In this document: piece by piece, positions 1,604-4,302 of the stretch
Layout of the letters: each line of letters starts with the position of its first letter
Position numbering within the stretch: the stretch's first letter is position 1
Source of the DNA: Holophagae bacterium
GTDB lineage: Bacteria > Acidobacteriota > Thermoanaerobaculia > Thermoanaerobaculales > Sulfomarinibacteraceae
Assembly (NCBI GenBank): GCA_030609785.1
Contig: JAUWTC010000026.1
Span: forward strand, 1-12,457
Direction: 5' to 3'
Length of the DNA: 12,457 bases
Notes under the pieces: model-generated
Databases searched by the model: none
What the model was told of the DNA's origin: nothing
What the model saw: the letters and a program-made list of their open reading frames with translations, nothing else
Program-made: the position numbers and the translations under genes

Positions 1604-1645
1604 TCAAAGTTGAACGTTGGACGTTGAGCGTTGGACGTTCACCCT
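1595..1645 (-). repeat. Degenerate AACGTTCA-type repeat, right arm of inverted pair
   Basis: Read on the minus strand, this arm runs GGGTGAACGTCCAACGCTCA and continues with further AACGTCC/AACGTTC units, mirroring 1434-1484. It overlaps the 3' end of the GT-C-like gene and supplies its last residues (VNVQRSTSNVQL) and its stop codon. The arms are about 110 bp apart. Confidence 0.75.
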
Positions 1646-2932
1646 GTTCCTTCGCCAATCCAACGCCGCCGCCAGAGGCAGGGCCCCGAGGACGACGAGG
1701 GGCATCAGGAAACGGTTACCCCAGTGCGACGTGACCCACTGCGCATACGTCGAATAAAAGAGGAAAATCGCCAGTGAGGTCACGGCGATGTAGACGGCCC
1801 AGCGGCGTTCTCGGAACCACAACAGCGGCAGCAGCAGGAAGGACACGACCGTAACGGGGCTTGTCGGCAGCAGCCCCTTTCCCGGCCGGATGATCTGGTC
1901 GCGAACCCCTCGCCACAGGGGTTCAGTGAAGTCCTCCCGATTCGAGTGCAACTCGATCCCTGCCTCGGTGAAGTGGACGATGCGATCGTACGGGGTGACC
2001 AGAGGGTGGCCGAAGAGGTGCTGGTTCAGGCCCATCCACAGGGCGACCGGAAGCAGGCCCCCAAGCACGAAAGCAGGGATGCTTCGTCGTAAGGGCTTCC
2101 CGAGGAGCAATGGCAACGCGATTGCAGCGAGCGCAAAGGACGGCTTGGCGGTTGTCGCCAAACCGAGGAACACGCCGGCGAGGATGTGCCGTCCGATGCA
2201 AGAGGCCCGGCCGGAAACCCTCTCACGGCTGCAAATCGCGAATGAGGCACAATCTGTGACGCCATAAGTCCTTGAAGTAGAGTGACTACGACTGCGGCCT
2301 TCCGGCGACACATCTCGCACCTCCTGGCGATTTTCGCTTCGCGGGGGATTTTCGGCCGGGCCTCTAGGCGCCCGGTCGTGCGGCAAGATCACCAAGGCGC
2401 CCAGGAGGAGAACCGCCGCGAAGACGTCCGGCGAAAAGTTCCATGCAAAGTGCGGCAGGAACGACAGGGTCGCCGTCAGACAGATCGCAACCGCCGACGG
2501 CCAGGGGCCGGCGACACGCCGAGCAAGCGCGAACATCAGGGCGCACAACAGGAGGAGCTGGAGCAGGTTAAAGACCAGGGCCCCCTGGTCACCGAAAACA
2601 AGAAGGAACGGGAGCGCGGCGAGAGACATCCACAGCGGGTGTTTTGGGACGAGTCGCCCTTGCTGATCAAGGGCCACGTTGGTGTTGTGGGCACGCCACG
2701 GCTGCCAGAGCTGATTCCCGAGGTCGAGGTCACCATCTTCGGCAATGGACCGGGCTGCGGCCACGTAGTATGGGCAATCTCCGCGCAGGTACGGCTTGCC
2801 GTCGTAACCGCTGCCGATGACCGCCAGGAATACGACAGCGGGAACCACCACCGCAACAAGACCGGCGAGGACCCCTCGTGAAACGGTCATGATTGGGCCC
2901 CGGGGCCGACGTTCTTGAACGTCATCATTCAT
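1604..2932 (-). CDS. GT-C-like polytopic membrane protein (putative glycosyltransferase) with in-frame inserted element
   Basis: The 442-residue protein has many hydrophobic segments: about 20-40, 101-119, 120-138, 145-160, 170-184, 248-275, 283-301 and several near 355-425. It has an early polar loop with RGDCPYYVAAARSI, a layout typical of GT-C fold lipid-linked-sugar glycosyltransferases. No diagnostic catalytic motif settles the substrate. The ATG at 2932 overlaps the TGA of the upstream SGNH gene (ATGA, 2929-2932), which fixes the start and implies coupled translation. Two oddities stand out. Residues 190-244 form a polar Arg/Ser-rich stretch in what should be a short loop between two membrane segments; it is encoded exactly by a 165-bp element with terminal inverted repeats. 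The last dozen residues come from the adjacent intergenic repeat, so the original C-terminus was probably replaced. The family is likely, but whether the protein is still functional is uncertain. Confidence 0.7.
   Translation of the reverse strand: MNDDVQERRPRGPIMTVSRGVLAGLVAVVVPAVVFLAVIGSGYDGKPYLRGDCPYYVAAARSIAEDGDLDLGNQLWQPWRAHNTNVALDQQGRLVPKHPLWMSLAALPFLLVFGDQGALVFNLLQLLLLCALMFALARRVAGPWPSAVAICLTATLSFLPHFAWNFSPDVFAAVLLLGALVILPHDRAPRGPAENPPRSENRQEVRDVSPEGRSRSHSTSRTYGVTDCASFAICSRERVSGRASCIGRHILAGVFLGLATTAKPSFALAAIALPLLLGKPLRRSIPAFVLGGLLPVALWMGLNQHLFGHPLVTPYDRIVHFTEAGIELHSNREDFTEPLWRGVRDQIIRPGKGLLPTSPVTVVSFLLLPLLWFRERRWAVYIAVTSLAIFLFYSTYAQWVTSHWGNRFLMPLVVLGALPLAAALDWRRNRVNVQRSTSNVQL
2201..2365. 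mobile_element. 165-bp MITE-like element with terminal inverted repeats, inserted in frame
   Basis: The 17-nt end AGAGGCCCGGCCGGAAA (2201-2217) matches the reverse complement of 2349-2365 at 16 of 17 positions. Similarity between the two halves continues inward more weakly (for example AAATCGC and TGTGACGCC/TGTGTCGCC), so the whole element is an imperfect long palindrome. It is 165 bp, exactly 55 codons, without a stop in the host frame, and it encodes residues 190-244 of the GT-C-like protein. I see no transposase and no convincing target-site duplication. It may be a non-autonomous transposable element or a large REP/BIME-like hairpin. Confidence 0.65.
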
Positions 2933-4302
2933 TCCGTTCCCACTGAAATCGAGGCAGCCGAAGCTGATTCAAGCTCATCGAAGTGAACTTGGTGATTCCC
3001 CCCGTTCAAACCGATGGCCTCCGCGATAAACCGGGCCAACCGCCGATGACCGTCTGCACTGAAGTGACCGTCTTCAGACAAGAAGTTCGAGGTTGAATTC
3101 TCGAAAAGATCTCGGGTATCGAAAAACTCGATGCCGTTCTCGCCGGCAGTTCTGGCCAGAAACCTGCGCAGCTTTCGCTGGGCCTGAGCGTGGACCTCAC
3201 CTCGCTCCCCGCTCGGGACAAACAGGTGGACGAGAATCAGGCGGATTTCTTGCCGACGACAGCGATCGGTCAGGTCTGCAGTTACACGGCGATAGTAACG
3301 GGCAATCGGAGCAAACCGAGCCGGATCCAAAATGGGAACCTCAACCCGACCCGGCCAGAGGCCTCGCGCCCGCAAGGCCGCAGCATTCATCGGCGTCGCG
3401 GCTTCAACCGACCGAGGGACGTTCTTGAGGCTGTGTGGCTCAGTAACCGAAACCTTGGCTGGTCGTGTCGAGGGCTCTCCCTGCGACGTCGTCGTTCGAT
3501 CTGGTTTCGGCGAACTTGCAGGCGCCCGAGATTCGCTACCGCCCTTCTTGTGAAGCCACTTGGTCGCCAGCCGCACTGTACCCAGTTCGAACGCAGCACG
3601 GACCGGCCAGGCCTCTTTCCGTGACTTGAGTTCGTCGACGCGGGCACGTATCTCGTCATAGTCAAAACTCCGGATCTCGGGGATCTTCTCGATCAGTCGC
3701 CCTTGGCGTTTTTTTTCCAGGTCTCGAAAATCATTGAGGAAGGAAAACAGCACGACCGTTCGAGGTCGCAACTGGTTGAGGTAGAGGTTCAGTAAGACCG
3801 TATGCTCGTAGAGGCACTGGCCCTGGCTGGCCATGTTGTAGGCCGCCACCCCGTGCTCGGTCCTCAGAAAATGCGCGACCGTTTCCTCCTCCTCCACCCC
3901 GTGGCCATAAATGAAGGAATCTCCAAGGAGCAGAACACCATGATCCACCAGGTCCGAGGGATTGCGAAAACCGAGGCTATCGGTTTGGTGGCGCCAGAAA
4001 TATCCGTGAGAATAGGCGCGGGTTGAATAATCAGCCCGCATGAATCGCATTTTGGTTCGCCTCTCCTTGACGTACATGCCTCCTGGCAGGGTGTCATACC
4101 TTGAAAAGGCCCAGCTCAGAGCATCACCGCCGAACAGGCTCGGCAGAAGACGCAGTGCGCCTTCGATTCCACCGACTACCGCCACCAAGCCGACCAGAAC
4201 AGCCAGCAGACGATACGTCACCCAACGAACCCACCCACGACGCCGGGGGCGGCCAACCGGTCCTGCAGTTCGGCGGAGGCGGGCATCTGATCGAGCCATC
4301 AT
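2929..4302 (-). CDS. Membrane-anchored SGNH/GDSL-family hydrolase or acyltransferase-like protein
   Basis: With the ATG at 4302 the protein has 457 residues. An Arg-rich N-terminus precedes one transmembrane helix at about 28-48, so the catalytic domain should face outward. Block I is LLLGDSFIYGHGV with the nucleophile Ser at about 129. The FLND segment at about 188-191 fits block III, and EDGHFSADGH at about 410-419 supplies the C-terminal Asp/Glu and His. Related SGNH proteins add or remove acetyl groups on surface glycans. Residues about 250-312 are a Ser/Thr/Pro-rich low-complexity insert that separates the two halves of the domain. The start is not decided by a Shine-Dalgarno: GTG 4314, ATG 4302 and ATG 4299 are all possible. 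Its stop overlaps the ATG of the GT-C-like gene, so the two likely act together in envelope glycan synthesis, though this is inferred from position. Confidence 0.72.
   Translation of the reverse strand: MMARSDARLRRTAGPVGRPRRRGWVRWVTYRLLAVLVGLVAVVGGIEGALRLLPSLFGGDALSWAFSRYDTLPGGMYVKERRTKMRFMRADYSTRAYSHGYFWRHQTDSLGFRNPSDLVDHGVLLLGDSFIYGHGVEEEETVAHFLRTEHGVAAYNMASQGQCLYEHTVLLNLYLNQLRPRTVVLFSFLNDFRDLEKKRQGRLIEKIPEIRSFDYDEIRARVDELKSRKEAWPVRAAFELGTVRLATKWLHKKGGSESRAPASSPKPDRTTTSQGEPSTRPAKVSVTEPHSLKNVPRSVEAATPMNAAALRARGLWPGRVEVPILDPARFAPIARYYRRVTADLTDRCRRQEIRLILVHLFVPSGERGEVHAQAQRKLRRFLARTAGENGIEFFDTRDLFENSTSNFLSEDGHFSADGHRRLARFIAEAIGLNGGNHQVHFDELESASAASISVGTE

Follow-up and report, generated by a model that had tools for sequence, protein, structure and literature searches.

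The window, i.e. the whole stretch of 12,457 nucleotides that was analysed (contig JAUWTC010000026.1 of the Holophagae bacterium assembly GCA_030609785.1), carries on its minus strand a gene for a GT-C-like membrane protein that contains a palindromic element in frame (Table 1). As stated in the preliminary description, the terminal sequence AGAGGCCCGGCCGGAAA at 2201-2217 matches its inverse at 2349-2365 at 16 of 17 positions, and the 165 nt amount to exactly 55 stop-free codons, codons 190-244 of the minus-strand gene 1604-2932. A repeat search of the window gave element arms of 20 nt that are 90% complementary and 125 nt apart. The inverted ends of the 165-nt element are 19 nt each, and the ends of the element family read AGAGGYCCGGCCGGAAACC. 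Pfam returned no match for the GT-C-like protein itself; some of its homologues among the matches listed carry precomputed PF13231 or PF09594. The proposed GT-C-like identity is in agreement with the predicted structure, whose best Foldseek match is ArnT (5f15, E 5.4e-4, TM 0.48). The AlphaFold model also places the insert, as had been suggested, in a probable loop between membrane helices, with a helix at residues 168-182, no structure at 183-231 and a helix at 241-262. The fold is kept in the model, and residues 211-229, with helices on either side, have a pLDDT below 50.

A further inverted repeat, made of AACGTT-type units and 81% complementary, lies at 1437-1484 and 1596-1643 of the window. 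The second of its arms extends into the 3' end of the GT-C gene, where it encodes the protein tail NVQRSTSNVQL, which makes it a second repeat reading into this protein.

Table 1. Position and strand of the element, its ends and its host gene in the window
Feature	Position	Strand	Description	Basis
Palindromic element	2201..2365	- (coding sense)	165 nt; encodes residues 190-244 of the GT-C-like protein	Copies present in seven genomes; 55-codon net insertion relative to empty orthologues; hairpin
Terminal inverted repeat, end A	2201..2219	+	AGAGGCCCGGCCGGAAACC	
Terminal inverted repeat, end B	2347..2365	-	AGAGGCCCGGCCGAAAATC	
CTAG junction at one element end	2364..2367	.	Opposite junction 2199-2202 is CAAG	
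Host gene	1604..2932	-	Putative GT-C-like membrane glycosyltransferase, 442 aa	ORF, empty orthologues, model, Foldseek

Positions 2201-2365 form a hairpin of 165 nt with inverted ends and belong to a dispersed, mobile-type element, copies of which occur in the source genome and its relatives, where the preliminary description had proposed to look for them. In the source MAG (G000; 2.8 Mb, 457 contigs, 80% complete) two more copies are present, one full (C447, 84%) and one half-length (C110). With two mismatches allowed, the 17-nt end has nine matches in this genome against none for a reversed-pattern control, two of the nine being the window copy's own ends and some others resembling unrelated sequence. 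Element matches were found in seven of 59 genomes (source genome counted), all among the 20 genomes of family f1; none of the 39 genomes outside this family matched, with at most 14 candidates scored per genome. With a consensus query, the seven genomes (source genome included) gave at least 50 places 100 nt or longer: at least 32 in G004, eight in G003, five in G002, two in G000 and one each in G001, G014 and G019. The total is a lower bound because candidates in G004 and G001 were only partly scored. With up to two mismatches, the 19-nt end has 76 matches in G004 against none for the control; the four matches in G007, against two in the control, are at chance level. A wider genome scan gave 39 stretches, in MAGs of Thermoanaerobaculales or Holophagae (Acidobacteriota) and in one Deltaproteobacteria-labelled contig. 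The copy on the latter (JAUVAN010000329, labelled Deltaproteobacteria bacterium CSMAG_220; L139, about 1797-1966) may reflect horizontal transfer or mis-binning. Viral contigs gave no exact match to the element core pattern and plasmids no blastn match to the element.

Measured from AGAGG to CCTCT, 15 of 44 copies are exactly 165 nt long and ten others 159-168 nt, some of the ten being cut by contig ends; a longer class of 197-201 nt accounts for 11 copies, two of them exactly 201 nt, and eight copies are partial. In G004 a long subfamily of 198-201 nt (C62, C398, C252, C101, C204, C87, C404 and C351; L089-L094, L096, L097) is longer by about 36 nt, which lie between the codons for TYG and those for SFAICSR. 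At two loci of the same genome (L019, L029) a short piece of another element end directly follows a full copy, with the CTAG common to both. The family resembles MITEs in being short, with no room for a transposase gene, in its dispersed copies and terminal inverted repeats, and in the existence of occupied and empty orthologous sites.

Such empty sites were found for coding and intergenic copies. In G002 and G003, precisely these 55 codons (165 nt) are missing from the orthologous GT-C-like genes, as anticipated for residues 190-244. The peptide is also absent from all 45 aligned homologues, a selection from the 120 listed among 136 matches; 42 of them have no letters in the insert columns and three have 2, 7 and 17 unrelated letters. 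The TrpF proteins of G003 and G002 align to residues 2-95 and from residue 151 onward of the copy-bearing TrpF of G000, leaving out residues 96-150 (55 residues), an empty site that rests on the protein alignment, the DNA alignment being too ragged to contribute. In the dnaE product of G004, 55 residues separate MSSDGIA from NPFVHLHLH; the corresponding G001 sequence is MSSSESLRPFAHLHLH. Among four intergenic sites, three (L013, L014, L025) have flanks that rejoin without a gap, and at L036, the remaining one, the junction contains a single additional base. The L025 copy itself is 168 nt long, and the flanks of G002 and G003 at this locus are identical over about 40 nt except for two junction bases. 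At the window site, in trpF and at three of the four intergenic sites, the insertion consists of the element only, with no other length change. Dispersal and empty sites are shown, as are, at the level of sequence, the in-frame fusions.

The commonest junction, with CT before and AG after the element, was found in 18 of 28 copies with AG...CT ends and creates a CTAG at both ends, so that the palindrome usually reads CTAGAGG...CCTCTAG. With element ends left out, the density of CTAG per kb is 0.128 inside ORFs of 150 codons or more and 0.494 outside them, in loci that overlap, so that part of the DNA is counted twice. A plausible mechanism would involve an enzyme acting in trans, with the hairpin or the element ends as its recognition feature and CTAG-like sites as its targets for insertion. 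As CTAG is about four times rarer in ORFs, most insertions would fall between genes, and the intergenic bias of the family can be explained by this rarity together with the removal of harmful insertions. Within a gene, a sense-oriented insertion in frame 0 would be survivable, since the element is a whole number of codons long and stop-free in that frame. The frame would then be maintained by selection on the host protein, with the 55 extra residues as an unstructured loop or tail.

In the three clearest intragenic cases the CTAG junctions are incomplete (CT/TG, CT/GG and CC/AA). The preliminary description had proposed to look for target-site duplications at empty sites, where no clear one was found and none beyond a possible TA. 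This TA bears on another reading of the family, as a classical TA-target MITE of the IS630/Tc1-like type, in which a 163-nt body GAGG...CCTC would be flanked by a duplicated TA and be mobilised by an IS630-type transposase. We regard this as a real possibility without favouring it. TA flanks the body at both ends of the 18 CTAG copies, the net gain of 165 nt fits 163 + 2, and TA termini are described for most bacterial MITEs, RUP having ends in common with IS630-Spn1 (see PMC2229807, on the repeats it describes). A TA duplication also predicts TA at the empty junction; of the six sequences from relatives that cover three empty intergenic sites only one has it, and at L025 the flanks of G002 and G003 differ precisely at the junction pair. 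The junction pairs are moreover unlike on the two sides in the window (TA/TT), in trpF (TA/TG) and in dnaE (CA/TA), and DDE_3 is unmatched in all seven genomes. The family shares with RUP and IS630-type MITEs the terminal inverted repeats, the TA at the ends of most copies and the non-autonomous character, whereas RUP is described as having stops in all six frames (PMC2229807) and the present family occurs in seven genomes without DDE_3.

The search for a matching transposase, also proposed earlier, yielded none in these fragmented MAGs, whether through DDE_3, Y1_Tnp or the ORFs beside solo ends. For an IS630-type partner, DDE_3 is absent from all seven genomes. For a RAYT/IS200 partner, Y1_Tnp proteins occur in four of the seven genomes but none of their 13 loci has an element end at up to three mismatches; like the present family, REPs are hairpin repeats, whereas their size is given as 20-40 bp (PMC3733652). 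The 20 ORFs on the inner side of 15 solo ends (one or two per locus) include no transposase and match Pfam cytochrome oxidase, Lon, PKD, T2SSE and similar families, or none. Places with an end only were also considered as autonomous copies and rejected, being solo ends, truncated copies at contig ends or members of a second hairpin family. Since the MAGs are fragmented, the absence of a transposase is weak evidence.

The element with 5 nt on each side folds into a single hairpin (RNA -82.4 kcal/mol, z -5.1, none of 200 shuffles as low; z -5.4 for DNA folding), and this self-folding extends beyond the two ends over nearly the whole stretch 2201-2365. In 20 aligned copies the hairpin has 54 pairs, ten of which are changed on both sides, and 97.2% of cells are paired vs 35-46% in slid controls. 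None of 500 shuffles of these copies reached any of five covariation measures, counts that are not probabilities because the aligned copies are related; the strongest pair changes are common to many copies. A hairpin so stable and covarying, with most copies outside genes, might be a functional RNA or a terminator spread for regulation, its intragenic copies being accidental. This we consider unlikely: the window, L012 and L018 gave no Rfam match at gathering thresholds, presence is patchy with empty orthologous sites, and the covariation fits a mobility hairpin as well.

ORFs spanning the element were sought in 44 copies, of which 34 are flanked on each side by 150 nt or more. For the window gene and trpF, a single open frame scores clearly as coding on either side of the element, and in dnaE the element lies in frame near the gene start, after seven codons. 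Pfam PRAI was matched in two stretches of the trpF product, and PHP and DNA_pol3_alpha in a 577-aa part of DnaE. These three well-supported in-frame cases, in two genomes, have ORFs open throughout the DNA analysed and keep the invariant residues of their families. Three more copies, L100, L101 and L091, also lie within an ORF, each probably at the N-terminal end of a secreted protein, and the G003 copy on C208 forms the C-terminal end of a HlyD-type adaptor, running to the contig end. Conversely, none of the 34 copies interrupts an ORF with a clear coding score on both sides (codon-score test with the flanks joined). For four copies (L104, L093, L035, L036) just one flank scores as coding, and these may adjoin gene ends; most copies appear to be intergenic or at gene edges, as judged by the codon-score test rather than by copy-by-copy annotation.

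A database search with the 55-residue region revealed the element peptide in four more proteins: a LicD protein (P0241, residues 254-308 of 314), a RecA-type domain protein (P0242, element ending at residue 57), an alpha/beta hydrolase (P0243, element at the N-terminus) and a Wzy_C ligase (P0244, residues 117-183 of 501, in a 67-codon form), the true start codon of P0242 and P0243 possibly differing from the predicted one. These proteins cannot show a preference for frame 0, because the query was in frame 0 and proteins were limited to 0.55-1.75 x 442 aa. One of these database cases is a cluster of 13 sequences on two contigs. Together with trpF and dnaE, the four proteins bear out the earlier suggestion that the element spreads within genes as well as between them. 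One TrpF locus was seen in G000 (in the 80% complete MAG). G004 has a second, distant DnaE-type ORF (31% identity), so that an insert in its sole replicative polymerase can only be surmised.

That the carrying genes are pseudogenes or misassemblies, their in-frame state being a passing one, is very improbable. The MAGs are fragmented and several contigs end at or in copies, and yet the three in-frame cases come from two genomes, with open ORFs and invariant residues kept, and are joined by the database proteins. A native, fast-evolving GT-C loop whose palindrome is a coincidence of G+C-rich sequence, as the open frame and loop position might suggest, can be dismissed, since the same DNA lies in many unrelated places and genomes and is missing from orthologues and homologues. 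The two findings that had been named in advance as counter-evidence, conservation of the residues in distant relatives and the lack of other copies, are thereby both contradicted.

The predicted structures of two host proteins keep their folds with the inserted peptide in place. In the AlphaFold model of TrpF the PRAI barrel is kept (best Foldseek match 1lbm, TM 0.88 by target) and residues 99-144 are mostly below a pLDDT of 50, a low value being expected for a segment without homologues in the alignment. The host genes have dN/dS values of 0.12-0.25 in filled-empty pairs, against 0.18 and 0.27 in two empty-empty pairs, values that may cover mostly the time before insertion; by this sequence measure they appear to be under ordinary constraint. 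Their frame, dN/dS and models together suggest that the host proteins may still be made and active, with the element translated and functionally tolerated.

The open frame of the element alone is unremarkable because 27% of Markov-1 random 165-mers of the same composition are open in a given frame (88% if any of the six frames is allowed). Read in gene sense, the consensus of the family is open in frames 0 and 1 and closed in the remaining four; frame 0 is open in 18 of 20 aligned copies and frame 1 in ten. Codon positions of the element vary alike (P 0.255), and alleles that introduce a stop in frame 0 show no significant deficit (2 vs 3.8 expected, P 0.21). Both tests being null, selection on the frame across the family is not proven. 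The preliminary description was right in placing a palindromic 165-bp element in frame in a membrane-protein gene, and its term 'domesticated' is not borne out by the codon tests. 'Tolerated' is the better shown of the two, and the element is better seen as selfish DNA than as a part recruited for function. We conclude with high confidence that it is a non-autonomous, MITE-like palindromic element, selfish and tolerated in proteins, which spreads in one Thermoanaerobaculia-like family of uncultured Acidobacteriota, probably by mobilisation in trans.

The in-frame palindromic elements described in the accounts cited here (PMC2229807, PMC10969869, PMC3767692, PMC4224334) are mostly from Rickettsiales, the enterobacterial cases being ERIC and YPAL. 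The RPEs, for which sizes of 105-146 bp and of about 105-150 bp are given, are palindromes fused in frame in Rickettsia genes, and the one tested RPE-bearing product mentioned there, Gmk, was still active (PMC10969869, PMC2229807). WPE-like inserts were reported in frame in Wolbachia recombination genes (PMC4224334), and such inserts are said to occupy solvent-exposed positions (PMC3767692). The present family resembles these RPE and WPE repeats, as described, in being short and dispersed, with a long stem-loop and an open frame, and in its in-frame inserts in conserved genes, solvent-exposed in the described repeats (PMC2229807, PMC10969869, PMC3767692, PMC4224334); like them, it has copies outside genes as well as in-frame copies within conserved genes unrelated to each other. 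It differs from them in its 165-nt length, its G+C-rich sequence, its CTAG-like junctions and its hosts, which are Acidobacteriota MAGs rather than Rickettsiales. RPE insertions in RNA genes have also been reported, whereas the present comparison covers protein genes. ERIC (127 bp) and YPAL/RU-2 (about 168 bp, with a frame coding 56 aa) are likewise repeats with an open frame found in frame in some enterobacterial genes, according to the overview in PMC2229807. The inverted repeats of YPAL are given there as internal and its duplications as 3-26 bp, whereas here the repeats are terminal and there is at most a possible TA. The best reading is that the family is a protein-coding palindromic repeat of the RPE-like kind in another phylum, a likeness drawn from the published descriptions. 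At the level of titles, the mostly non-subscription literature gave no report of such an element in Acidobacteriota.

Judging from its multi-megabase environmental MAGs, the host lineage, which is G+C-rich, is probably free-living. The inserts in trpF and dnaE, genes for enzymes of tryptophan synthesis and DNA replication, suggest that mobile DNA can add peptides to core enzymes without endosymbiont decay, and the presence of filled and empty orthologues in sister species makes the cost of a 55-residue peptide directly testable.

The second hairpin family has ends in common with the 165-nt element and other cores. It was found in G001 as copies of 321 nt (L069, 3002-3322) and 276 nt (L071, 2729-3004; four mismatches in the first end) and in G010 as copies of 276 nt (L201 and L204, from 1501). 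Its 19-22-nt ends are the same as those of the element, and both lengths are multiples of three with at least one stop-free frame. One could envisage a superfamily with shared ends (AGAGGYCCGGCCGG...), different cores and sizes in multiples of three (165, about 201, 276 and 321 nt), selected to be harmless to genes; if so, core proteins would regularly gain peptides from what would be a 'gene-compatible' MITE. Each of the four size classes has at least one stop-free frame. This superfamily seems rather unlikely, as only the two long-class copies noted above, out of 11, are exactly 201 nt long and the tests for coding selection are null; the pattern of multiples of three itself rests on these four classes.

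Solo element ends were also seen at the edges of genes. A single 22-nt end lies at 3001-3022 of both L070 (G001) and L082 (G003), at the 3' end of the same gene, which we take to be deoC, and apparently codes the C-terminal tail of its product. In G010, a diverged element end (L208 and L209, 1501-1519) abuts an apparent gene 3' end, for which it would supply the TAG stop; the gene in L208 is presumably that of EF-P.
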